Shown here one piece after another: positions 5,023-53,288 of a stretch of 53,790 nucleotides of DNA. The position numbers and the translations under genes are program-made. Numbering within the stretch: the first letter of the stretch is position 1; each line of letters opens with the position of its first letter. Below the pieces are notes generated by a model, which was not told the origin of the DNA, did no database searches, and saw only the letters and a program-made list of their open reading frames with translations. The DNA comes from Candidatus Poribacteria bacterium (GTDB taxonomy: Bacteria; Poribacteria; WGA-4E; WGA-3G): NCBI GenBank assembly GCA_022824265.1, contig JAJEAG010000077.1, positions 1 to 53,790 on the forward strand. The letters are read 5' to 3'.

Positions 5023-5847
5023 ATGAAAATTCGTTATCTTTTACTACTTGTAATATTCACATTTTCTATTATTCTGAGTGGTATGAACTTTGTTTATGCC
5101 CAAGGAAAGGTTAATGTCCAAGATGGACCTATTCCAGAAGCAGAATGGATGGTTAAGGTTGCTGGAGCAGAATTAAGTGAAGATCACTCCGGTGTAGATA
5201 CCTGGATCACTAAATGGTATGGACTTGATGGAAACTATATTAACAACGGAGGATTTGGAGCAAGTGCTCCAAAAGACCTAATTGAATTAGGCACAGACGG
5301 TAAACTAACACAGTTAACATTGTCAACCGTAGTTGGAATAAATAAGACGAAGGATGTTGATGTGAATTGGCCCGATAATGGTGGAGCCAGAGAATGGACA
5401 GTCTTTGAAATAGATCCTGCGAATCCACACAACATGGATAGAGGTGGTCCCGTAGATAACTATGATATGTATGCAATCTGTGTTATTGATGCACCTAAAG
5501 CCATGAAATCTGTTATGTCTCCTGCCCATGATGATCATGCACAGATTTGGATCAACGGTGAAAAATGGTATAACAATCCAACATGGACAGGTGCTGCACA
5601 ACAAGTTGACTTCAATATTGAAGTTGATTTGAAAAAAGGTGCAAATGTTGTTCTGTTTCGGTGTGGAGAAGGTGGAGGTCACGGATACCTTAATCTACAT
5701 TTTGATGATGATACCCACGATGCAGTAGATATTTATCCTGACAAGTCTGATGACCAAGCAAGTTTCTTAAAAGAAGTCGCAGGTGTTTTACCAGTTGAAC
5801 CCACAGATAAGTTAACTACCATTTGGGCAGACATTAAACGAAAATAG
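5023..5847 (+). CDS. Exported protein with C-terminal TTxW tail
   Basis: This is a 274-residue secreted protein with a Sec signal peptide (residues 1-26, cleavage near Y-A-Q-G). It starts behind a very strong AGGAGGAAA site. The body looks like a beta-sandwich. The segment around residues 165-230 (H-D-D-H-A-Q-I-W-I-N-G-E, then a G-A-N-V-V-L-F-R-C-G-E-G-G turn) resembles the jelly-roll/PA14-like carbohydrate-binding domains attached to glycosidases. I cannot assign a precise family. The last residues are V-E-P-T-D-K-L-T-T-I-W-A-D-I-K-R-K, the tail shared with four other exported proteins here. The gene is monocistronic, with its own promoter (4869) and terminator (5902). The strong signals suggest high expression. 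Confidence 0.8.
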   Translation: MKIRYLLLLVIFTFSIILSGMNFVYAQGKVNVQDGPIPEAEWMVKVAGAELSEDHSGVDTWITKWYGLDGNYINNGGFGASAPKDLIELGTDGKLTQLTLSTVVGINKTKDVDVNWPDNGGAREWTVFEIDPANPHNMDRGGPVDNYDMYAICVIDAPKAMKSVMSPAHDDHAQIWINGEKWYNNPTWTGAAQQVDFNIEVDLKKGANVVLFRCGEGGGHGYLNLHFDDDTHDAVDIYPDKSDDQASFLKEVAGVLPVEPTDKLTTIWADIKRK

Positions 5848-28363: not shown

Positions 28364-29218
28364 ATGTTTTGTACATTTAAGAAATTTAGAAATCACAATT
28401 TTATACTACTATTTTGTTCCATATTTTTAGTATCATTGTTCATATTTAGTCCCTCTATTGAAGCTCAACGCGATGAAGCAACAGTTGCGGGTATCTGGAC
28501 TTTTGATGACGGATCTGCAAATGATACTTCAAATCAATCTCTAAATGGAGTTGTTGTAGGCAAGCCTAAAGCCGAAAAGGGCATTGTGAATGATGCCTTG
28601 AGGTTTAATGGTACAAGCGATGGAATCCAGATTCCCGATTCCAATAGAATAAATACAGGTGGTCCATTCCCTAAACGTACCGTTGCTGCATACTTCAATT
28701 GTGATGATGTTAATAAAAACCAAAAACAGGTTATTTTCGAGGAAGGTGGAAGAACGCGTGGGTTAGTTGTTTATGTGTTCGATGGTAAAATATATGGAGG
28801 AGCGTGGAATCGCGCAGAATATAATTGGCAAGGAGAATGGTTATCAACTGATATAAAATCAAAAAATTGGTATCACGTTGCTGTTGTCATTAGAGATGCC
28901 GCTGGAAAAGTAGAAAAAGATAAGTTTGAATTATGGTTAGATGGTAAACTCATTGATACGGCAGATGGTGGTCAACTACATGCACATGGTGATAATAACG
29001 GAATTGGTTTTGTTAACCAAAATGTAGTATATCATGATGATGGAGGCGCAGGAACAAACATTGATTGGTTTGGAGGATTAATCGATGAAGTTGTAATCTA
29101 CAGTTCGTCCTTTACCGAGAAGGAAATATTAGAACTCACAGAAGCATTAACCGTTGAACCACAAGGAAAATTCACAACTACTTGGGCAAAATTGAAAGAA
29201 CATAGGTCTTTACATTAG
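28364..29218 (+). CDS. Exported LamG-domain protein 1, TTTW tail
   Basis: This 284-residue secreted protein has an N-terminal signal (about 1-36, ending S-I-E-A-Q-R-D). One concanavalin-like LamG domain (about 40-255) opens with A-G-I-W-T-F-D-D-G, has G-D-A-L-R-F-N-G-type and W-Y-H-V-A-V-V strands, and closes with G-L-I-D-E-V-V-I-Y. LamG domains bind carbohydrates or proteins at the cell surface. The extreme C-terminus is V-E-P-Q-G-K-F-T-T-T-W-A-K-L-K-E-H-R, the shared tail. It is the first and most divergent of three tandem paralogues. Confidence 0.88.
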   Translation: MFCTFKKFRNHNFILLFCSIFLVSLFIFSPSIEAQRDEATVAGIWTFDDGSANDTSNQSLNGVVVGKPKAEKGIVNDALRFNGTSDGIQIPDSNRINTGGPFPKRTVAAYFNCDDVNKNQKQVIFEEGGRTRGLVVYVFDGKIYGGAWNRAEYNWQGEWLSTDIKSKNWYHVAVVIRDAAGKVEKDKFELWLDGKLIDTADGGQLHAHGDNNGIGFVNQNVVYHDDGGAGTNIDWFGGLIDEVVIYSSSFTEKEILELTEALTVEPQGKFTTTWAKLKEHRSLH

Positions 29219-29343
29219 TTGTACCTTGAGTGTCCTAATTCAGGGAAATAGAGGATTTTTATTAATTATTTCTATCTTAGAATCCTAAACCAAAACTTTA
29301 CACTTTGAAACGGTGATTTTCTCAATATCAAGGAGTATTTCTA

Positions 29344-30174
29344 ATGAAAAAGTATGTTCTAATTTTATGTGTATTTCTTACACTAAATGCATTATCAGTT
29401 TTTGCAGCCAGAGATGAAGCCACTGTTAAAGCTAACTGGAATTTTGATAACGGTGATGGAACAGATGCTTCTGGTAATGATGTAAATGGAACAATAGTCG
29501 GTGAACCAGAAGTTGTAGACGGCATCGTTGGAAAAGCATTCAAATTTGATGGAATTGATGACGGTATAAAATTTCCAGACGAAGAAGGAATAAATACTGG
29601 AGGTCCTTTTACTAACCGAACAATTGCAGCTTTCTTCAAATGTACTGATGTTAGTATTTCAGATCATAAACAAACTATTTTTGAGGAAGGTGGACGATCA
29701 AGGGGCTTGGTTCTAAATGTATATGAGGGAAATGTATATGTTGGTGCATGGAACCGGGCAGAATACCAATGGGCAGGTGCATGGCCCTCCGTTACTATTG
29801 AATCTGATAGATGGTATCACGTTGCATTGGTCCTCAGAGAAGGAGGCAATCAAGTTGAACCAGATAAATTTGAGATGTGGCTTGATGGTATAAAGGTTTC
29901 AAGTGATCCTGGTGGACAAGTCTTTGCTCACGGTGCTGATATTGGCATTGCCCATACAAATGGAGATACTTTTTTCCACGACGAAAGTGGTCAAGGTAAT
30001 AACATCCATTTCTTTGGTGGAGTAATTGACGAAGTAATTGTATACAACTCAGCTTTTGATGAAGATGATTTCGCAGAATTTGCTGATGTGATTCAAGCTG
30101 CTACAAGTGTTGAACCACAAGACAAATTCACAACTACTTGGGCAAAATTGAAAGAACACAGATCTATAAATTAG
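29344..30174 (+). CDS. Exported LamG-domain protein 2, TTTW tail
   Basis: This 276-residue paralogue of its neighbours has signal peptide about 1-22 (S-V-F-A-A-R-D-E) and the same R-D-E-A-T-V start of the mature chain. A LamG domain follows (W-N-F-D-N-G, W-Y-H-V-A-L-V, G-V-I-D-E-V-I-V-Y). The tail is V-E-P-Q-D-K-F-T-T-T-W-A-K-L-K-E-H-R-S-I-N. An AAGGAG site precedes the ATG. Its last 120 bases are nearly identical to those of LamG protein 3 while the remainder is much less so, suggesting recombination between the copies. Confidence 0.88.
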   Translation: MKKYVLILCVFLTLNALSVFAARDEATVKANWNFDNGDGTDASGNDVNGTIVGEPEVVDGIVGKAFKFDGIDDGIKFPDEEGINTGGPFTNRTIAAFFKCTDVSISDHKQTIFEEGGRSRGLVLNVYEGNVYVGAWNRAEYQWAGAWPSVTIESDRWYHVALVLREGGNQVEPDKFEMWLDGIKVSSDPGGQVFAHGADIGIAHTNGDTFFHDESGQGNNIHFFGGVIDEVIVYNSAFDEDDFAEFADVIQAATSVEPQDKFTTTWAKLKEHRSIN

Positions 30175-30238
30175 TTGTTTCTTGTATAATCCAAATATGA
30201 TTTACGAATATCATTACATTTTCAAAGGAGAATATCAA

Positions 30239-31066
30239 ATGACAAAATTTATCTCAATATTGTGTGTGTTGCTTATGTTATTTACACTAACGGTGTTTGC
30301 AGCAAGGGACGAAGCAACTGTCAGAGCAGTTTGGACTTTTGATGAAGGGGATGCAGCTGACACCTCTGGACATGATGTCAACGGTACGTTTGCTGGGGAA
30401 CCTGAAGTGGTTGACGGAATTGTTGGCAAGGCTCTCTTATTTGATGGCGTTGACGATGGAGTCAAACTACCAGATTCAAACGGACTCAATACTGGCGGTC
30501 CTTTCATGAACCGTACCATTGCTACATATTTCAAATGTACTGATGTGACGATCTCAGATACTAAACAAACCATTTTTGAAGAAGGTGGCAGAACACGTGG
30601 TTTTGTGATAAATGTCCATGAAGGAAAGATATATGTTGGTGCATGGAACCGTGCTGAGTACCAATGGGCAGGTGCGTGGCCCTCTGCTGATGTAGAATCT
30701 GATAGATGGTATCACGTCGCTCTTGTCCTACGTGATGGAGCCAGTGCAGTTGAAGATGACAAATTTGAGATGTGGCTTGATGGTGTGAAAATTGCCAGCG
30801 AACCGGGTGGTCAGATGCATGCTCACGGCGACAATACAGGTATCGCACATACAAATCAAAATGCTGTATTCCACGATGACGATGGTTCAGGAACAGATAT
30901 TCATTACTTCGGTGGAGTAATTGACGAAGTAATTGTATACAACTCAGCTTTTGATGAAGATGATTTCTCAGAATTTGCTGATGTTATTCAGGCTGCTACA
31001 AGTGTTGAACCACAAGACAAATTTACTACTACATGGGGTACACTTAAATCGGATAGGTTGCGATAG
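30239..31066 (+). CDS. Exported LamG-domain protein 3, TTTW tail
   Basis: The gene encodes 275 residues from ATG 30239, chosen for the AAAGGAG site seven bases upstream and because the protein then starts with a normal signal peptide (about 1-21, T-V-F-A-A-R-D-E). The LamG domain closely follows that of protein 2 (V-W-T-F-D-E-G, W-Y-H-V-A-L-V-L-R, G-V-I-D-E-V-I-V-Y). The tail is V-E-P-Q-D-K-F-T-T-T-W-G-T-L-K-S-D-R-L-R. A terminator-like hairpin at 31105 closes the cluster. Confidence 0.88.
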   Translation: MTKFISILCVLLMLFTLTVFAARDEATVRAVWTFDEGDAADTSGHDVNGTFAGEPEVVDGIVGKALLFDGVDDGVKLPDSNGLNTGGPFMNRTIATYFKCTDVTISDTKQTIFEEGGRTRGFVINVHEGKIYVGAWNRAEYQWAGAWPSADVESDRWYHVALVLRDGASAVEDDKFEMWLDGVKIASEPGGQMHAHGDNTGIAHTNQNAVFHDDDGSGTDIHYFGGVIDEVIVYNSAFDEDDFSEFADVIQAATSVEPQDKFTTTWGTLKSDRLR

Positions 31067-34614: not shown

Positions 34615-37600
34615 ATGGAGTTTACTCTCTTGAATCCACAGTACGCATATAAAATAATATTACTGTCAATCCTCGCACTCTGTTTTTTAATTATTGTTAC
34701 ACCTGTCTTAGCAGCAGATAAAGATGAATCCCTTCCTCCGCAACAAGAAGAGTCTGAATCACAAACAACTGTTGAGAATCCGTTTGAAACAAAACCCGAA
34801 AAATCCACATGGACTTTTGAAGAATCTGACACGAAATCGATTGAAGATAAATCAGAAACAGAAGAAATCGATGCAGATATATCTTTACGTCGACAGTTGT
34901 TGATGCCGTATTTAGAATCTTTGCGACGTTGGAAATATCCACCTGATTTGGGTGACCTATCCGAACTATACGGATGGCAGCCACGCAAAAAGACCGATAC
35001 AAAGGGAATTGATCTCCCGATGGATTCCAATTTACGTATAACAGGGTTTCAGTCAGTTACAATTGAAGTTAATAAAACACACTATTTCGGTGAAGGAGAT
35101 TTGAATCGATATGGTGGATACGGATATGGTAGTTATGGTGACTACGGTTCAGGACTCGACCTTGGTTTAAGTTCCTCCTACGGATATGAAGATTTTGGAT
35201 ATAGTAGTGGGTTAGGTGGAGGATATGGAAGTTCTGGTTCAGGGTATAGCAGCTATGGGAGTGGTTATAGTAGTTATGGTAGAGGAGGAATTCCGCGTGC
35301 GACAGGTATCAATATTCGTCAACATCAAAAAATCGGATTACATGGACGGGTAGGAGAACGAACACATATTGCTGTAGATTATAACGCAGGAGATACCTAT
35401 GGTGGCGGATATGGTGGATATGGCGGTTCAAGTAGTTTTGGTCTCGGTGGCACAAAAGAACAGAAGATAAAAATCTGGTATGAGGGGAAACCCGATAGTA
35501 TCATCAAGACTATCTCATTTGGAGATATTACGCTTAGTCTTCCTAATACACGTTTTTTGAATATCAATCGGAATCTTTTTGGACTTGAAGGTGTATTTGA
35601 ATATAAGAACACACGTTTTACAGCATTCGGATCACGTAGTAAAGGTATACGTGAAGTGCGGACGTTCCGGGGACAATCTCGCAGAGCAAGTTTTGGATAC
35701 GGACCTGGAGGTATACAAGTAGGGGATGCAAACTATATAAAAAACAGATATTATTTAATTCATCAAGGTGAGGATGGACTCCTACACGAAGCATATCTAC
35801 CAATAAAATCTGGTAGTGTAGAGATATATATTGATGATAGTGTAGTTGGTAACAACCAAGGTGGTCAACGAACAAGTCGCGGTTATTTTAATCCGCAATT
35901 TCCTGGACAGGACTATAATATAGACTATGAAACTGGTGAGATAGAGTTTTTGTCACCAATATCGTCAAACTACACTATAGTAGTTGCCTATGAATATCTT
36001 GGGGATGGCGGTGGAAGCATCGGAAATCCAGGTAATGTTTTCGCAGATGAAAATGGGGACGGTTCCTTTGATGAAGAGGGGGAAGAGATTGGATATGTTA
36101 CGATAAAAGAGAAAGGATTTCGTGGAACTGCGGCAGCACATGTCTATTTTCTCCAAAACCGAAACATCAACCCTCGTGATTTTCAGTTGACTATAATTCG
36201 TCAGGGAGAGAATGAAACGTTCCAGACAGATGATGGACTCGTTCCATATATAGAGATATTTGGATTAGACCAAAATGGGGATGGTAATGTTGATCCCGAA
36301 TTCATAGACTATGACAGAGGGTTACTACGGTTTCCAAGTACGCGTCCGTTTGAAATTAGGGATTCAGAACATCCATTTTATCAATATAGAGATACGCTAA
36401 ATAATGAGGCAATTTATCTGGAATCCATACGTAGCACAGACCAAATCTATACGATAGTTGCTGATTACTCCTTTCAGTCTGAGACCTATAATGTTGGTTT
36501 ATTTGTAATTCCAGAGAGTGAAACCGTTCGGCTAAACGGCAGACTTCTGACACGGGATACAGATTACTTGATGATTTACGAGGTAGGTACAATTCGGTTT
36601 TTTACTGAACTGGATGAATTTGATGAGATTGTCGTGGAGTTTGAAAAAACACCATTCGGAGGCGGCACGCAGCAGACTGTAGCAGGTTTATGGGTAGAAT
36701 ATACACATAAACCGAAACCAAAATCACCGAAGGAACAGAGTCTTGACGACAGATTCAATCGTTTAGGTGGGACACACACAGGACAACCCGGTTTAGATAA
36801 TAACCTGCCGACTGATCCATTTTCAGGAGGTATTTCTCGTTCAGGTAGTGGTCTCGGCAATATAGGGTTGGGTGGTAGTGGATTCGGAGGAGGAAGTTTT
36901 GGAAGTAGTGGCTATAGTAGGTATGGGGGATATGGTGGTCGTTCACGAATAGGATCAGGATATTACGGAGGATACGGTGGAACGTCAAACTATTTCAATC
37001 CAGTTTTTCAAAAAGGATTTAACATATCAACGGGTTATATCCTAACGACTGGACAGAAACCAACTCAAATTCCGGATGTTAACAGTGTTCCTAACCGTTT
37101 ACAAGCCCTTAATCTCAATACAAGCTTTGGTAGAGAGTTCAACATTGCATGGTTAGTTAATCCGCTACCTTTTGTGAATGTCCGTAATTTTCCTCTTTCA
37201 ATTGATGTTAGTGGTGAATCTGCATTTTCACATAATAACCCCAACAGCGTTGGTGTAGCCATTATTGATAGTATGGAAGGAGTAAAGCAAACTGCAACAA
37301 TTCCAACACTAAAATACAATTGGAAACCGAGTAGTGTTCCATATATCTCTGAAGGACAACAGGTAAATTCCACTGAAGACGAATATAATGTAATACCAAC
37401 ACTGGAAAATCGAGCACTCTTTAATGTCGTGCTTAAGGATAGAGAAGAAGCTGAGGCAGTTGGTAATTACATGCGAAATCGAGATGTCCCTGCATCCACT
37501 ATCCAACCACTTTCTCTCTCTACGGAGGAACGACTGATTATGGAGGTAGGATATGAATTTACCGATGTCGTTCATGAGTGGGGTGGTTTCTCCAACGGTG

Positions 37601-40600
37601 TGTCAAAATCTGGGGTTGACTACTCTGAACGTGGGTTTATTGAGATGTGGCTTCGTGTGCTGGGTGAGAATGATGTAACACTCTATCTGAATATTGGTGC
37701 TGTCAGTGAAGATGCAGATGCAGATGAACGTCTTGACAGTGAAGACTTGCCACAATCATTAGAGGATACAAATGGGGATGGTGTTATAGATGCACTGGAT
37801 CTTGACCTTGAAAATTTGTCTAATGAATACCGATATCGTGGTAATGGCACATTGGATACGGGAGAAGATGTTGGATGGTTGTATGAGGGGGCACTTCAAT
37901 CAAAGGCTTTTGGTGCAAATAATCAAATCTTAGACAGCGAAGACTTAAACGGAGACGGTGTACTTGATAGTGTTGATGCCTATTTTCAGGTCGCAATACC
38001 CTTAAATGAAATCCCAAATGAATGGATAAAAAGTAAGAACAATAATGGGTGGACTTTTCTCAACATTCCATTAACCGAATTTGTTCCTGAAGGTTCGCGT
38101 ATTCCAAGTCTTGTATTTGTTCAGCATTTCCGTTTTTGGCTACAAAAAAACCGTCCCGGAAATGTTAAAGGAACTTTCCAATGGGCATCAATTGAAATTG
38201 TTGGAAATAGATGGCAACAAGGGTTGGTAACAAGATCACTGACAGATACAACAACCGGACTTGCTGATAACCAAGTTGTTGAGGATACATTGGAGAAATT
38301 CATTGTAGGGACAAAAGATAACTTCAGTTTTGACGATTATCAGACTGCGTATTTGGAGATAGAGAACAATGATCTCTTTAGGAAATTACATCCCTTCACA
38401 GCGACAACACAGGCATTTCAAACACAACAACAACGTGAACAGACACTTAGTTTAGAATATTACTTATTCCCTGGATCGTACGGTATCACTTCCAAACAAC
38501 TTCGAGGGTATACTCAGAGTGAGGGTCAGGACTTTAGTAGACACGATACATTACGATTTTGGTTATATGGAGACAATAGCGATATGACCTTCGTGCTACA
38601 ACTCGCTCCAAGTGTTAACACAGGTTACAGAAGTTCATTTTACAGTTCTGACCCATTCCTCAACCAACCCGAACAGGAAGATGTAAATATCTTTGAGAAT
38701 CTAACCGACTACTATGAATACTCCGTGCCGATTGACTTTGATGGGTGGAAATTAATTGAAATTGATCTGCGTGATAATACCAAAAATGATTATCCTGACA
38801 GGATTGAGGATCCGAATGTTGATACAGACATAGTGCCTCAGAATGTCCAACCAATTCCTGAAGAAAATGCACCTGATGGTCATCCAGATGGCTTTATAGT
38901 TAGAGGTACAGGATCAAGTGTAAGTAGTACGCGACTAAGTGTAAAGAATATCGGTGGAATCCTGTTGGGGATTCGTAACGATACCGACAGAGAAATAAGT
39001 GGTGAGATATGGGTGAATGAGATACATCTTGGTGATCCACTTATCCGTTCTGGTTGGGCACGTCGTGGTGATATGTCTGTATCACTCGGATCGATTGTGC
39101 GTTTGCGTGGAGGTTATGCAAGTCAAGATAAAGATTTTGAAAGTGGTGCTGGGGAAATTGGACGACAACGTTTGTCATCTCGTGGATATAGCACAACCAA
39201 TAACGATTACAATATCAATGCGGATATAACACTATTCTCATGGTTACCGATTCGGTATTCTATTCGTGAGCAGGAATCTGAAACAGAAGCACAACGTGGA
39301 AGTTATACCACATATCAAAGTGGAAAGAGTGAATCGCTCAACCGTGATATATCTGTGAATTTTAACAGAAATCCCTATCCAAACTTGGGCTTTGCATACA
39401 ATTACCAAGATTTTTGGAATGAACGACAAGGCACACAGATTAGCCATCTTTATACAGGATCATTTGGTTACAACTTAGGATCCAAACTCGGTTTTAATAT
39501 GCTGTATCGGCATGAGGATATAATCGCAAAACCGGAAACTGCTACTGATACATCCACAACAACTTCTTCCTACTATAGCTACGGTTACGGTAGAAATCGG
39601 GATGAAAAGACAGATAGCGGTTCATTCACACTCAACATAAGTCCCATCAATGCGTTCAGTCTAAATCCACGTTATGAAATACGTCGAACTCTTGAAAAAC
39701 GTGATCAGAGTCGTTATAGACCTACCTTTTTTGGTGCGGGTGGAACAGACCCAAATATACCAACTGAAGACGAACCCGATGAGGAAATAGAACCTAATTT
39801 CACAATTGCAGAACGCGAACATCGTATTTCTCTGACACCTCGTCTCAATCGGGATCTGTTCGGTCTACGTCCAACGGTGACAAGTCGTGCAAGTTTCAGA
39901 GAAAACTGGTTCACCACGCAAAAGGATGCTTCAATCAACGGTAATGTCAATTTGGGTTTGAATTTTCGTATACAAAAATGGTTCGGATGGCTTTTTAAAA
40001 AGGAAGAACCAATTATTGAAACGGAGGAAACTGATACAGTCAATACAACAGAAGGAACGAACACACAAGAACCGAAGAAACAGTTAATTGAACAGTTGCG
40101 TGATAATGATATTGATGAAGCTCAAATCCAAAAGGTATCCGAGGATCAAAGCGATTGGATAAACCGTGATAAAACAGAAATGGATCAAAAACAGGTTACC
40201 AACAACACAAATGTTCAAGGTCAACTTGCTTCACAACAACCTAAACCGGAAGGTTTTGTGCAAAGGATAATCAATACACTTACGATTAATACAAGCGCAA
40301 ATTACACTGCGTATGAATCATTTCGTGAACTTATGTCTGGTCAAACCTTTATAGATATTTGGAATCTGGAAGAAGATGCTGAAGAACGTACCAACTCTCG
40401 GAAAAGTAATAGATACACAATCCGCACAAACGTCGATCCTTTGAAATGGTTGTCCTTTGGGACTAACCTTAGTACATCAGATAGTTTTCGTAAGAGTTAT
40501 GCCACGACCTATTTAACACATGCTGAAACTTACGAAGCGGATATAAAACTGAACGCTCAGCAGGCAACAAGTTTCCAATTACGATATAGTTTTACGAAAC

Positions 40601-41082
40601 AGAATACTGAAAACCTTGATGTTACTATCTCTGATAGTTCTGCACATACGCCATCGTTGAGTTGGTTACACAAATGGAATGAAAAGACACGAACATCATT
40701 GGGTATACGCACAACCCTTCGCGATCACTTACGCAGCGGTATAGAAAGTAACGCATTTATTGTAACTCCTAATTTTAGCATTGATTACCGTTACAACACC
40801 GAAGGAGGTATCCGTATACCTATATTTGGTAGAATTCCACTTAAGCACGACCTTGACTTGACCAATACCCTTTCTTTAGCCATCCGACGTGAAAACTACG
40901 GTGCCAATAGAGAAGAACGTTCTGAAAGGTATGAAACAACGCTACGCGTTGGTTATAAACTCAGTGATCATCTAACTGCAAATCTGCATCTGGGTGTAAG
41001 TTATAATAACGACAGGGTTGAAGAAGGAAGGGATTATCTGTCTATAGCAAGTGCGTTGACAGTTAGAGGGGAGTTTGAATAA
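34615..41082 (+). CDS. sprA: SprA-like giant outer-membrane protein
   Basis: This 2155-residue exported protein has signal peptide about 1-38 (V-L-A-A-D). I assign it to the SprA family (the type IX secretion translocon, a 36-strand barrel) from several matching segments. These are D-Y-D-R-G-L-L-R-F-P-S-T-R-P-F near 562-580, the Y-N-V-G-L-F-V-I-P-E-S-E-T-V then D-T-D-Y-L-M-I-Y-E-V-G-T-I region near 625-660, and V-N-E-I-H-L-G-D-P with G-W-A-R-R-G-D near 1470-1490, followed by long barrel-like beta strands to the end. Unusual Gly/Tyr/Ser-rich segments (about 162-225, 262-276 and 745-792) interrupt it. The ATG lacks a ribosome-binding site. TTG 34630 has GGAG nine bases upstream and may be the real start. 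T9SS partners (GldL, GldM, PorV) are not seen. Confidence 0.72.
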   Translation: MEFTLLNPQYAYKIILLSILALCFLIIVTPVLAADKDESLPPQQEESESQTTVENPFETKPEKSTWTFEESDTKSIEDKSETEEIDADISLRRQLLMPYLESLRRWKYPPDLGDLSELYGWQPRKKTDTKGIDLPMDSNLRITGFQSVTIEVNKTHYFGEGDLNRYGGYGYGSYGDYGSGLDLGLSSSYGYEDFGYSSGLGGGYGSSGSGYSSYGSGYSSYGRGGIPRATGINIRQHQKIGLHGRVGERTHIAVDYNAGDTYGGGYGGYGGSSSFGLGGTKEQKIKIWYEGKPDSIIKTISFGDITLSLPNTRFLNINRNLFGLEGVFEYKNTRFTAFGSRSKGIREVRTFRGQSRRASFGYGPGGIQVGDANYIKNRYYLIHQGEDGLLHEAYLPIKSGSVEIYIDDSVVGNNQGGQRTSRGYFNPQFPGQDYNIDYETGEIEFLSPISSNYTIVVAYEYLGDGGGSIGNPGNVFADENGDGSFDEEGEEIGYVTIKEKGFRGTAAAHVYFLQNRNINPRDFQLTIIRQGENETFQTDDGLVPYIEIFGLDQNGDGNVDPEFIDYDRGLLRFPSTRPFEIRDSEHPFYQYRDTLNNEAIYLESIRSTDQIYTIVADYSFQSETYNVGLFVIPESETVRLNGRLLTRDTDYLMIYEVGTIRFFTELDEFDEIVVEFEKTPFGGGTQQTVAGLWVEYTHKPKPKSPKEQSLDDRFNRLGGTHTGQPGLDNNLPTDPFSGGISRSGSGLGNIGLGGSGFGGGSFGSSGYSRYGGYGGRSRIGSGYYGGYGGTSNYFNPVFQKGFNISTGYILTTGQKPTQIPDVNSVPNRLQALNLNTSFGREFNIAWLVNPLPFVNVRNFPLSIDVSGESAFSHNNPNSVGVAIIDSMEGVKQTATIPTLKYNWKPSSVPYISEGQQVNSTEDEYNVIPTLENRALFNVVLKDREEAEAVGNYMRNRDVPASTIQPLSLSTEERLIMEVGYEFTDVVHEWGGFSNGVSKSGVDYSERGFIEMWLRVLGENDVTLYLNIGAVSEDADADERLDSEDLPQSLEDTNGDGVIDALDLDLENLSNEYRYRGNGTLDTGEDVGWLYEGALQSKAFGANNQILDSEDLNGDGVLDSVDAYFQVAIPLNEIPNEWIKSKNNNGWTFLNIPLTEFVPEGSRIPSLVFVQHFRFWLQKNRPGNVKGTFQWASIEIVGNRWQQGLVTRSLTDTTTGLADNQVVEDTLEKFIVGTKDNFSFDDYQTAYLEIENNDLFRKLHPFTATTQAFQTQQQREQTLSLEYYLFPGSYGITSKQLRGYTQSEGQDFSRHDTLRFWLYGDNSDMTFVLQLAPSVNTGYRSSFYSSDPFLNQPEQEDVNIFENLTDYYEYSVPIDFDGWKLIEIDLRDNTKNDYPDRIEDPNVDTDIVPQNVQPIPEENAPDGHPDGFIVRGTGSSVSSTRLSVKNIGGILLGIRNDTDREISGEIWVNEIHLGDPLIRSGWARRGDMSVSLGSIVRLRGGYASQDKDFESGAGEIGRQRLSSRGYSTTNNDYNINADITLFSWLPIRYSIREQESETEAQRGSYTTYQSGKSESLNRDISVNFNRNPYPNLGFAYNYQDFWNERQGTQISHLYTGSFGYNLGSKLGFNMLYRHEDIIAKPETATDTSTTTSSYYSYGYGRNRDEKTDSGSFTLNISPINAFSLNPRYEIRRTLEKRDQSRYRPTFFGAGGTDPNIPTEDEPDEEIEPNFTIAEREHRISLTPRLNRDLFGLRPTVTSRASFRENWFTTQKDASINGNVNLGLNFRIQKWFGWLFKKEEPIIETEETDTVNTTEGTNTQEPKKQLIEQLRDNDIDEAQIQKVSEDQSDWINRDKTEMDQKQVTNNTNVQGQLASQQPKPEGFVQRIINTLTINTSANYTAYESFRELMSGQTFIDIWNLEEDAEERTNSRKSNRYTIRTNVDPLKWLSFGTNLSTSDSFRKSYATTYLTHAETYEADIKLNAQQATSFQLRYSFTKQNTENLDVTISDSSAHTPSLSWLHKWNEKTRTSLGIRTTLRDHLRSGIESNAFIVTPNFSIDYRYNTEGGIRIPIFGRIPLKHDLDLTNTLSLAIRRENYGANREERSERYETTLRVGYKLSDHLTANLHLGVSYNNDRVEEGRDYLSIASALTVRGEFE

Positions 41083-41971: not shown

Positions 41972-43612
41972 TTATTCAATGAAACCGCGCAGGCGATGGC
42001 TGCGGACAGGATGTCGAAGTTTACGGAGTGCTTTTGCTTCAATCTGTCGGATACGTTCACGAGTGACATCAAAGACGACTCCTACCTCCTCAAGTGTTTT
42101 TGGATAACCAGTAGTGATGCACAGTGTTGTAATTCGTTTGCGAGTTGTTTCTGACAATAAAGGATTCACAGCATCGTCCTCAATACCAAACCGAAGGACA
42201 ATCACTTCCCGTTCCCGTTCTGACAGATCAGCAAGAGCATCTTGAATGCGTTCTTTGAGAATACTTAGTTCAGCTTCTGTTGCAGGTGATAGAACACTTG
42301 CATCTTCAATAAAATCACCTAATTGACTATCATCATCGTCATCGCCAATTGGTGTTTCCAGTGAGACAGTTTCTGGAACAATCCTAAGAACTTCCCTAAC
42401 TTTTTCTGTTGGAATGCCCATATCCTCAGCGATCTCATCTGGTGTAGGTCTACGTCCTAATTCCTGTAATAGAGATCGTTCGGTCCTTTTCATTTTATTT
42501 ATTCTTTCATGCATATGAACAGGTATTCGGATAGTACGTCCTTGGTCGGCAATAGCACGCGTGATACTCTGTCGGATCCACCACGTGGCATAAGTGCTAA
42601 ACTTGTATCCACGCTGATAATCAAATTTGTCAACTGCACGCATCAACCCAATATTACCTTCCTGAATCAGATCAAGAAATTCCATTCCAGGTGCTTGGTT
42701 TCTATATTTTTTTGCAATGCTTACAACTAATCTGAGATTTGCTTCAACTATCGCCATTTTGGCATCTTGAGCATTTGCTTCACCTTTGCAAATCTGCTTA
42801 GTAACATCTTGTAATGTATCACGCGAAATACCGATTGTATTTAGATACTGTTTGATTTCGCGTTGATAACGAATTATATCAATGTATGCCTTTTTTGCTG
42901 CTCCCGTTTTGAAACTATGCGTTTTAGGGTTTAGTCTACCGTTACACCATTCTGGTGGAATGTTATGCCGTTTTTGTAGCTGCTCAATTTCTTTTTCCCG
43001 TTGACTAATGTTGCGATCTACCTCTGTAATAAGACCGGAGATTTTGCTTATTTCTTCCGGATCTATCTTAAGTTGATCCAAATGTTTTACAAAGGTTTTA
43101 TGAGAACGTACATTTTCAAGTTGGACAATAGAGTTATTTTTAGATGCATCCTTTACAGCAACAAGATACTCCAACTCTAACTTCTCAATTACCTGCATAA
43201 TTCTTTCAACTCTATCACGTAGTTTACGTTCTTTATCGCGGGTCGAGTTACTTGAAACTTGCATATCAATTATATCAGATGCACGTTTTTTCGCGATGAT
43301 GATTTTATAAAGCAGTTTGCGCACCTCAGCTATTGCTAATCGAGTTGTAAAGGTTGCTTCTTGCGCTTGACGAAGACTGCTTTCTATCTGCTTAGACAAT
43401 TCGATTTCCTTTTCTTTATCAATCAAAGGAATTTTTCCCATGTCACGTAAATATACCTTTATTAGATCCTCGCGTTCGCTGATTTCACCAGGGGCAAACT
43501 CAATTACATCATCATATTCCCCTTGCTCAGTATTGTCAGTTTCATTGAAATCAAGTAGGTGTGTATTTCCTATTTCCACCTGTATCTCTCCTTTCTGATT
43601 TCTTCGGTGCAT
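41972..43612 (-). CDS. rpoD: Primary sigma factor RpoD (with an insertion in region 4)
   Basis: This is the housekeeping sigma factor, 546 residues. Region 1.1 is essentially missing. Region 1.2 starts near 48 ([10 protein letters not shown]), a helical non-conserved region spans about 90-270, and region 2 spans about 290-360 ([25 protein letters not shown]). Region 3 follows (I-R-I-P-V-H-M-H-E), and region 4 ([12 protein letters not shown] and [12 protein letters not shown]). About 25 residues ([14 protein letters not shown] and onward) are inserted between regions 4.1 and 4.2. GTG 43579, preceded by AAGGAGAG, is an alternative start. It is the last gene of the mutS2-dnaG cluster. Confidence 0.97.
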
Positions 43613-43687: not shown

Positions 43688-44266
43688 CTAACTATTCAAA
43701 ATCTGCTTACTTCGTTCCTCAATTTTCCCATTGATATGTTTTCTGTCTGCCATCGCGCGTACAACAGCTTGCCGAATCCACCAAGTAGCATAAGTTTTAA
43801 ATTGAAAGCCGCGCTGATAATCGAAATTGTCAATAGCCTTCATCAATCCGATGTTCCCTTCATGTATCAAATCAAGAAATTCGATTCCAGTTCCATGATT
43901 CACATGTCGCTTTGCAATAGTAGCAACTAATTTGAGATGTGCTGATATAAATTGAAAATATATATCTTCAATATTGTCACCGCATGTGTTTATCTCCATT
44001 GTTATATTTCGCAGTATATCACGTGATAAACCTATTTTGTTGAGATATATTTTAATTTGACTTTGATAACGTTTGATATCTTGATACGTCTCCTTTTGGG
44101 TATCTGATGCAAACTGATGAGTTTTTTCGTCGAACCCCACGTTCAACCATTCAGATGGGATGGCATGTTGCTTTTGAAGGAGTATGCTTTTTTCTTCCCA
44201 ATCACATATCTGTCGTTCAACTTCATTAATTTGAAAAACAATGGGGTGCATGTTTCCTAATGTCAT
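43688..44266 (-). CDS. Stand-alone sigma region-2 protein (partial RpoD paralogue)
   Basis: This 192-residue protein aligns along its length with residues about 192-375 of the neighbouring RpoD: the end of the non-conserved region (Q-H-A-I-P-S-E-W against R-H-N-I-P-P-E-W), then regions 2.1-2.4. The core-clamp helix reads [13 protein letters not shown] (Gln to His at the position of E. coli Q406). The -10 helix reads [13 protein letters not shown] (T440 position is Val). It stops at M-A-D-R-K-H, so regions 3 and 4 are absent, and the 75 bases before rpoD leave no room for them. It starts two bases after the dnaG stop with a well-placed AGGAGA, so it is surely translated. It may bind core polymerase as a competitor or partner. 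I know of no described family for this layout. Confidence 0.85.
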
Positions 44267-48804: not shown

Positions 48805-49821
48805 TTATCTCAAAGTTCGTTTAACATCACCCCATGTTGTAGTTAACTTCTGTTTAGCTTCTACGTCAAGCACTTCATTTTTCCACCAAGAGATTCCAAA
48901 AATCCCTCCATCCACTTCAAACAGCTTTTCTGTTTTTTCAGCATTACGATCATATAGATAGAATGAACCCCATAAAGAATAAATAATAGATTGTGAATCA
49001 AATGACCAATCCGACCACATACTTGCATTTTTATCTACATCATAGAGAGGTGTTAATTCTCTTGTACCAACATTGATTGTGTACATTGTGTCAAGTTCTC
49101 TGTCCCATCTTCTGAATAATATTTCCTGACCGTCGGGTGTCCACACAGGATAATAATCAATGTTAAATTCAGTTAATACTTCTATTTCTCTCGTTTCAAT
49201 ATCCAATAGGAAAAGTTGTTCCAACCCGCCAGGTCTTTCAAGTGAAAATACAATTCTCTTACTTAATGGACCCCACGACATACCAAAAAAGAAAAAAGTT
49301 CTTCCAAAATGTGGTATTGCAGTTACAGGCTCCATTACCCCGGTATCAAGATCCATTATCCAGATTTGGTTTTCTTGTTGCTGCTGGTCTTGAGTATATC
49401 CGTTAAAAGCAAGTTTCTTTCCATTAGGTGATATGGAAAGGAAACGATAAGTACCCCCAATTGCAGTGAGTTGTGTCTTTTGCCTCGGTCTATTAACATC
49501 AATTGAAAAGATATGTGATTGCGTTTCTACTCGTTGTATGAAATAGAGTATGTCTTCTTGAGGTGACCAAACAGCATAATATCCGGGATGATGCAAAGAT
49601 CTTGATTTGAAATCACCGTCTTCAGTAAAAGTTGTCATTTGCAGATTGTATTCAAATTTGCCAAGTTGTTCATTAAAACCGCGAACAGAATAAGCGATAC
49701 GTCCTTGAAGTTCAGCATCTACAGTAAACGGTAAACTTAGAAAAAATAAAATGATTCCTAAAACAGATGATTTAACGATTCCATTTGTCCATACATATAA
49801 AACACGACAATTATTTTTCAT
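48805..49821 (-). CDS. Exported TolB-like beta-propeller, TTTW tail
   Basis: This 338-residue protein has a signal peptide (about 1-36, V-D-A-E-L). WD40-like/PD40 blades follow, such as H-P-G-Y-Y-A-V-W-S-P-Q-E-D-I-L-Y, S-I-S-P-N-G-K-K-L-A-F and Y-Y-P-V-W-T-P-D-G-Q-E-I-L-F, as in TolB and prolyl-peptidase propellers. No peptidase domain follows. The end, V-E-A-K-Q-K-L-T-T-T-W-G-D-V-K-R-T-L-R, is the short tail shared with four unrelated exported proteins here. Its ATG lies inside the end of the upstream TPR gene (11-base overlap), so the two are coupled. Confidence 0.85.
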   Translation of the reverse strand: MKNNCRVLYVWTNGIVKSSVLGIILFFLSLPFTVDAELQGRIAYSVRGFNEQLGKFEYNLQMTTFTEDGDFKSRSLHHPGYYAVWSPQEDILYFIQRVETQSHIFSIDVNRPRQKTQLTAIGGTYRFLSISPNGKKLAFNGYTQDQQQQENQIWIMDLDTGVMEPVTAIPHFGRTFFFFGMSWGPLSKRIVFSLERPGGLEQLFLLDIETREIEVLTEFNIDYYPVWTPDGQEILFRRWDRELDTMYTINVGTRELTPLYDVDKNASMWSDWSFDSQSIIYSLWGSFYLYDRNAEKTEKLFEVDGGIFGISWWKNEVLDVEAKQKLTTTWGDVKRTLR

Positions 49822-51724: not shown

Positions 51725-52169
51725 ATAATACCTCCATAAATATGTTATCAAATAATAATATTTCTCTCTCAAAATTATACTACATAACATGTCAAAAACC
51801 AAATTAATTTGGATGAAATAATCAGTAAAAATTCTTCGCGTTGTATGAATTAGATTACTAACACTATAAATTGAACGGTATTGGCATAGAATTTGCTCCG
51901 AATACAATTATGTTGGTTACGTAACAACGAATCTTGAAGTATGTCGAGTAAGGGATGTAAATATAGAACAGCATTGACATCTTAGGTATTTCATTGATAG
52001 ATAATATTGGAAATTTGACGCGATATTTTTCACCAAAATTAGAAAAATTCACACAATAAAATACACATGTGGTTGGTAAATCTTGACAGCAAAAACAACA
52101 AATATAGATTTCTACCAACATCATAATTTAGTATCAACTGAAGACAACGAAATGATACGGAGAATCAAA
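51725..52169. other. Divergent intergenic region
   Basis: Apart from the peroxiredoxin promoter (51774-51802) and an ATACGGAG ribosome-binding site just before 52170, I see no gene, repeat or RNA in this AT-rich stretch. Frames across it lack start signals. Confidence 0.5.
51774..51802 (-). promoter_or_regulatory. Promoter of the peroxiredoxin gene
   Basis: On the minus strand TTGGTT (51802-51797), a 17-base spacer and a perfect TATAAT (51779-51774) predict a start near 51767 and a leader of about 43 bases. The -35 box is weak, which may indicate an activator such as an oxidative-stress regulator. Confidence 0.5.
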
Positions 52170-53288
52170 ATGAAAAACACAAACAAAATAATCACAGCAT
52201 TTAGCATTTTAATGCTTCATATTTATATAAACATTAGTATTGCAGATGTCCCTGACGGTATGGTTCTAATTCCAAATGGAAATGGAATTGATTCATTCTA
52301 CATAGACAAATACGAAGTCACCAATGCAGAATATAAAAAGTTTATAGATGCAAACCCATTATGGCAAAAAGGAAACGCATTAACATCAATTGTAGGAGAT
52401 ACATATTTATGGGGATGGAAAGGTAATATGTATCCGAAGGGTAGAGAAAATCATCCTGTTGTTGATATTAGCTGGTTTGCTGCAAAAGCCTACGCGGAAT
52501 GGGTTGGAAAAGAACTTCCAACACAAACACAGTGGGAAAAAGCAGCACGTGGCACATTGAAAAATACAAAATACCCGTGGGGTGACGAAAGTCCACAGAA
52601 TAAAGCCAACTTTGATAAATACACTGAGACGGTTAGTTTTAGAATACCTCCCACCAAAGAAGTAGGTAGTTATCCACCAAACGAATACGGCATTTACGAT
52701 ATGATTGGTAATGTTGGTGAATGGTGTTTGGATCGGTTGGATGTAGACGATATTCATGGAAGATATCATATCATGCGGGGCGGTTCTTGGTTTGAAACAG
52801 CAGAAGATTTACAGATCTCACGGATTAGTCAACATCCTGTTTATGATGGAATGGGCACTCTTGGATTCAGATGTGTTTTATCAAATAAAGTAGACATGTC
52901 ATCTGATGTGTTAAGTGATATGTCTTCTTGGTTATATGAAAACATGGATAGTTGTTTTGATAGTGCTCTTTATAGTGCTTCTGAAGGATATTTACCCCAA
53001 TCTAAACTTGAAGAAAAACTTGATGGTATCGTTAAGTACTTCACTGGATATTCCCGCACATTTGAGAAAGAACTCAATCTTGTTTTACTTAAAACTATAG
53101 CCGAATACAATCCAAGTGTAGATCCTGAAGAATATTGTACTATTAGAGACATAATGCATAATATATGGAAATTTTATCTCGAGATACATTTTAGATATTA
53201 TGAGAAAAAAACTGATGAAAAACTGGAACTTCTCCGTGGATGTATTCTGGAGAAAATAGATTACCTATTTATGGGTACTGGTTGTTGA
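52170..53288 (+). CDS. Exported SUMF1-domain protein with extra C-terminal domain
   Basis: The gene encodes 372 residues from ATG 52170, chosen because CGGAG lies seven bases upstream and a signal peptide (about 1-26, S-I-A-D) then follows directly. A SUMF1/FGE-like domain covers about 30-240: Y-E-V-T-N-A-E-Y near 46, H-P-V-V-D-I-S-W, L-P-T-Q-T-Q-W-E-K-A-A-R-G, Y-P-W-G-D-E, M-I-G-N-V-G-E-W-C, R-G-G-S-W-F. Both catalytic Cys of true FGE are missing after G-G-S-W. The last 120 or so residues are helical, with several Cys, and unassigned. GldK/PorK of type IX secretion also has a Cys-less SUMF1 fold, but no lipobox is present here, so that link is speculative. Confidence 0.82.
   Translation: MKNTNKIITAFSILMLHIYINISIADVPDGMVLIPNGNGIDSFYIDKYEVTNAEYKKFIDANPLWQKGNALTSIVGDTYLWGWKGNMYPKGRENHPVVDISWFAAKAYAEWVGKELPTQTQWEKAARGTLKNTKYPWGDESPQNKANFDKYTETVSFRIPPTKEVGSYPPNEYGIYDMIGNVGEWCLDRLDVDDIHGRYHIMRGGSWFETAEDLQISRISQHPVYDGMGTLGFRCVLSNKVDMSSDVLSDMSSWLYENMDSCFDSALYSASEGYLPQSKLEEKLDGIVKYFTGYSRTFEKELNLVLLKTIAEYNPSVDPEEYCTIRDIMHNIWKFYLEIHFRYYEKKTDEKLELLRGCILEKIDYLFMGTGC

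Follow-up and report, generated by a model that had tools for sequence, protein, structure and literature searches.

The Poribacteria encode a diverged homologue of SprA/Sov, the outer-membrane translocon of the type IX secretion system (T9SS), as is established by profile, profile–profile and structure comparison. We put at about 0.83 the probability that, in a type IX-like secretion system of this phylum, the gene described here encodes the outer-membrane translocon. Judged from sequence, that system appears to be phylum-wide and to extend beyond the accepted range of T9SS, with multiplied carriers and a motor that is not detectable with current models. Kamke et al. 2014 (PMC3909097) reported proteins with T9SS-type C-terminal domains (CTDs) in Poribacteria, many of them with eukaryote-like repeats, found no secretion genes and called the pathway unresolved. 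Abby et al. 2016 (PMC4793230) found T9SS in Bacteroidetes only, and the abstract of PMC12421860 places it in the Bacteroidetes-Chlorobi-Fibrobacteres group. Our literature search for Poribacteria together with T9SS returned nothing that by its title concerns Poribacteria secretion, and the genes may already carry annotations. Genes annotated as SprA-like are also known from other candidate phyla.

Results

A diverged SprA homologue

The window (the whole stretch of DNA analysed, 53,790 nucleotides) comes from a Candidatus Poribacteria assembly of 4.45 Mb that is 96.66% complete. The gene starts with ATG, and its frame is open at exactly the coordinates in the first line below:

34615-41082 (+): SprA/Sov-like gene, candidate outer-membrane translocon, 2155 aa (open frame; TIGR04189 match; loci throughout Poribacteria)
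34615-34713 (+): signal peptide-like N-terminus, residues 1-33, ending VLA (read by eye from the sequence)
35101-35292 (+): insert 1, Gly/Tyr/Ser-rich, residues about 163-226 (composition scan; orthologue comparison)
35302-36705 (+): SprA-homologous N-terminal stretches, TIGR04189 positions 129-256 and 376-672 (profile search; hhalign to Parabacteroides SprA)
35383-35457 (+): insert 2, Gly/Tyr-rich, residues about 257-281 (composition scan; orthologues; hhalign)
36814-36993 (+): insert 3, Gly/Tyr/Ser-rich, residues about 734-793 (composition scan; orthologues; hhalign)
37150-39261 (+): SprA-homologous central stretches, TIGR04189 positions 722-816, 895-960 and 1082-1502 (profile search)
39058-41070 (+): predicted C-terminal membrane part, about 25 long antiparallel strands, residues about 1482-2152 (AlphaFold half model; Foldseek)
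39997-40278 (+): variable linker between strands, residues about 1795-1888 (modelled partly as helix, at low confidence)

The original prediction had called the product SprA-like, an identification that the sequence and structure comparisons support. A search with the SprA/Sov equivalog profile of NCBIfam, TIGR04189, which the prediction had proposed as a check, matches the protein with E = 4.8e-39 at 133.5 bits, below the curated cut-off of 200 bits. The match consists of five collinear stretches (positions 129-256, 376-672, 722-816, 895-960 and 1082-1502 of 2319). SprA genes scoring over the 200-bit cut-off are found in 0 of 79 Poribacteria genomes. A tblastn search of plasmid records returned a single record, from Parabacteroides distasonis, in which the match falls within the annotated sprA (E = 8e-4, 22% identity). 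When the protein was aligned to this Parabacteroides SprA with hhalign, the probability was 97.6 and the E value 4.4e-12 over 1035 columns. Identity to Parabacteroides SprA is about 22-26% by tblastn and hhalign, and identity to SprA in structure alignments is 10-13%; in length the two are of one class (2155 aa here, 2472 aa in Parabacteroides). Searching PDB sequences with the protein, or with a profile of either half, turned up no relative, and a Pfam CBM_11 match lies below the family cut-off. The SprA identity was reached solely via TIGR04189, via tblastn and hhalign with Parabacteroides SprA, and via folding.

Predicted structure

The protein was folded with AlphaFold as two separate halves, the C-terminal half comprising residues 960-2155. 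Mean pLDDT is low overall (38.6 for the N-terminal half and 57.0 for the C-terminal half), and is mostly 72-93 across the last 270 residues of the C-terminal model. The C-terminal model as a whole has about 25 long strands in antiparallel arrangement. With Foldseek, SprA chains of T9SS take the first four places for the C-terminal half (8gl8, 8gl6, 6h3i and 6h3j, E 6.5e-16 to 5.7e-12), the best non-SprA match being the Mtr complex at 4.5e-8. For the N-terminal half SprA takes the first three places (E 5.8e-15 to 1.5e-11), and the next match is at 4.3e-3. SprA ranks first for both halves, well ahead of whatever follows. TM-scores of the half models against SprA are 0.09-0.23.

VIA-align superimposed the C-terminal half on 6h3i with Z = 13.2 over 551 residues (model 42-1196 against SprA 1000-2400). 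Because ordinary porins reach equal scores (Z 12-16), this result indicates a barrel, not SprA specifically. We considered whether the C-terminal half is an ordinary porin and rejected this, as most porin alignments are short (200-420 residues only) and Foldseek separates SprA clearly. The half models are no more than compatible with a 36-strand barrel. The likeness to SprA of Flavobacterium johnsoniae (6h3i, 6h3j, 8gl6, 8gl8) and Sov of Porphyromonas gingivalis lies in collinear blocks and in the best structural match of both halves, and this combination of significant collinear homology with SprA as the closest fold places the protein in the SprA/Sov superfamily.

Distribution and lineage-specific inserts

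The original prediction had placed the candidate outside a recognisable Bacteroidota context, and the organism does lie outside that phylum: the related loci, 56 in all, come without exception from records titled Candidatus or uncultured Poribacteria, and the closest of full length is 97% identical. The SprA-like gene is present in 78 of 79 Poribacteria genomes and in 56/56 of those of good quality, with one locus in most. Open reading frames of at least 2100 aa, 47 in number, align over their whole length and are conserved apart from the initial 100 residues and a region near residues 1800-1900; the variable linker is the least conserved part of the protein after the N-terminus. At some loci BLAST matches were confined to residues 784-2155 or 20-717, as if halves had been replaced. 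We rejected this interpretation because the full alignment shows both halves conserved, the partial matches being search effects near the Gly-rich inserts. A synteny comparison found no neighbour of the gene kept throughout the phylum. In one neighbouring genus, many genomes have a PorU-like gene and the SprA gene about 30-45 kb apart, which is no more than suggestive.

The three Gly/Tyr/Ser-rich segments that had been noted from the sequence are present, and insert 1 reaches about 65 residues. Across eleven orthologues inspected, their place and composition are kept and their length differs. In the hhalign comparison inserts 2 and 3 lie opposite gaps in Parabacteroides SprA, and insert 1 precedes the aligned region. 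The inserts are variable parts of a barrel protein that is otherwise conserved, and on a plain reading they are flexible loops specific to the lineage; they may or may not be the structural or adhesive repeats to which the original prediction likened them.

Candidate carriers, proteases and cargo elsewhere in the genomes

Ten window ORFs scanned against NCBIfam include no PorV, no CTD and no GldL, GldM or GldN. The original prediction had noted that none of these was visible nearby, which holds within the window; genome-wide it fails for the PorV family and the CTD. The isolated translocon that it implied is wrong: this genome has PorV-family, PorU-like and CTD genes on contigs other than that of the window, so that PorV-family carriers, PorU-like sortases and CTD cargo occur genome-wide. 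The search for PorV and Gld proteins that had been suggested found the PorV family in 40 of 40 genomes and detected GldL/M/N in none.

Type A sorting domains (the TIGR04183 CTD) score over the cut-off in 79/79 genomes, with 34 matches in this genome, and sit at the very C-terminal end of those proteins that were inspected. The PorV family (NF033709) is over its cut-off in all 40 genomes, at 13-25 copies each (15 here), a multiplicity by which it differs from the known PorV/PorQ carriers. The best scores in this genome reach 224 bits against a cut-off of 90 bits. Four PorV-family proteins tested are over the family cut-off and none is over the PorV or PorQ equivalog cut-off. Two of the PorV-family genes adjoin large proteins with CTD-like ends.

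PorU-like C25 proteases are likewise present in 40/40 genomes, under the NCBI equivalog cut-off in every one. One example, a protein of 2158 aa on another contig (C98), combines Propeptide_C25, Peptidase_C25 (E 1.1e-89) and a C-terminal CTD and carries the GHGG and TTC motifs; against NF033707 it gives E = 1.3e-111 and 374 of the 420 bits required. This architecture is that of the PorU/gingipain family C25. The Poribacteria proteins differ from PorU in their size (about 1700-2300 aa), in the long segment separating protease from CTD, and in occurring more than once per genome in many cases.

SprA homology and fold on the one hand, and phylum-wide PorV-family proteins, PorU-like proteases and CTD proteins on the other, are observations. 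We infer that these proteins work together and that export occurs. The mechanism we envisage is modelled on the structures in PMC10994853, the source of the analogy for entry into SprA, binding of PorV by the CTD and sideways exit. CTD-tagged proteins would cross the inner membrane by Sec and enter the SprA-like barrel from the periplasm. At the lateral opening the cargo CTD would dock on a carrier of the PorV family, and cargo and carrier would leave the barrel sideways together. A PorU-like C25 sortase may then process some of the cargo.

The motor

GldM and GldN gave no match in 40 Poribacteria genomes, and GldL gave one, in genome G001, which we judged spurious (E 2.9e-4, inside a 1155-aa frame). 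Pfam GldL_N produced sub-threshold matches only, likewise in unrelated control genomes. As a control, the GldM model was run on Parabacteroides, where it scores 575 bits within a gldL-gldM-gldN cluster. The absence of GldL and GldM is not proven by these searches, because even SprA shares no more than about 22% identity between Poribacteria and Parabacteroides. Within the window, 52083-53288 encodes an FGE-fold (SUMF1-like) protein that matches the GldK model with E = 1.2e-25 at 90.7 of 350 bits, a match that is probably generic for the FGE superfamily.

The motor and ring (GldK/L/M/N) may simply have diverged past the Bacteroidota models, leaving a complete ordinary T9SS with the translocon as proposed above; we rate this at a little under even odds. 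Given how far SprA has diverged, equally diverged and much shorter GldL and GldM proteins could escape detection, and proteins of the FGE fold, which is that of GldK, are present, the window protein among them. However, GldM is silent in 40 genomes in which SprA, PorV and PorU all match, the GldL_N signal is no different in unrelated controls, and the FGE match is generic.

We regard as unlikely a phylum-universal type IX-like export that dispenses with GldLM and draws its energy from another source, an ExbB/ExbD set being one candidate. Only one MotA/ExbB-type protein was found in this genome, and it is encoded in a cluster:

L135:7408-13155, contig C74: 1110-aa putative outer-membrane/envelope protein, ExbB with a CarboxypepD_reg domain, and two ExbD

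The cluster of ExbB-ExbD-ExbD and the 1110-aa protein is kept in six other genomes. The 1110-aa protein is in no assigned family, its outer-membrane barrel nature is a reading of its sequence, and it has no significant similarity to SprA by BLAST. Linking the cluster to the type IX-like system is speculation. That this particular set energises a T9SS-like system without GldLM is less likely still: it is the sole motor of its type found and is conserved beside a putative outer-membrane protein, but no connection with SprA, PorV or CTD genes emerged, the set could serve Tol-Pal or TonB functions, and its partner is a barrel by sequence reading only. Should the motor really be missing, the view that all type 9 export is powered by GldLM would have to be revised; if GldLM-free export were true, the module of translocon, carrier and sortase could work apart from the gliding motor.

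Least probable is a large SprA-derived barrel that does something else, such as forming a passive surface pore, while CTD proteins take another way out; an undetected motor, Poribacteria-specific inserts and scores under the equivalog cut-off would suit it, but PorV-family proteins, PorU-like sortases and CTD cargo co-occur phylum-wide and we know of no alternative exporter of CTD proteins.

Our preferred reading remains a SprA-like translocon serving type IX-like export, in which the SprA-like, PorV-family and PorU-like genes likely answer the question of the pathway left open by Kamke et al. 2014. These genes would then give the likely route for surface display of proteins in a dominant group of sponge symbionts.

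Other observations

Five proteins encoded in the window share a tail of about V(E/D)PxxK(L/F)TT(T/I)W(G/A)x(L/I/V)K (the KLTTTWGxLK tag):

5023-5847 (+): tagged ORF
28364-29218 (+): tagged ORF
29344-30174 (+): tagged ORF
30182-31066 (+): tagged ORF
48805-49821 (-): tagged ORF

Three of them, at 28364-31066, are tandem, similar, secreted-looking proteins of 276-294 aa. At the DNA level the tag pattern has 31 occurrences in this genome and its reversed form 2; per genome the tag pattern is found 17-33 times in this family and 0-9 times elsewhere in the phylum. All 44 sampled matches lie 10-16 codons ahead of a stop. A looser form of the motif ends 34 of 709 ORFs, where 0.1 are expected, and the N-terminus is hydrophobic in 29 of these 34 and in 245 of the remaining 675. 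Three tagged proteins that were scanned have zero NCBIfam matches. The tail may be a sorting or anchoring signal that has yet to be described, distinct from the T9SS CTD.

A 192-aa ORF at 43688-44266 (-) resembles by eye part of the adjoining 546-aa sigma factor at 41972-43612 (-), and is perhaps a partial duplication of it. Finally, the records labelled as Parabacteroides distasonis plasmids (NZ_OY725747-NZ_OY725770 and their siblings L136 and L155) carry the chromosomal genes ruvA, dxs, sprA, gldLMN and rpoN, and look like chromosome contigs mislabelled as plasmids.
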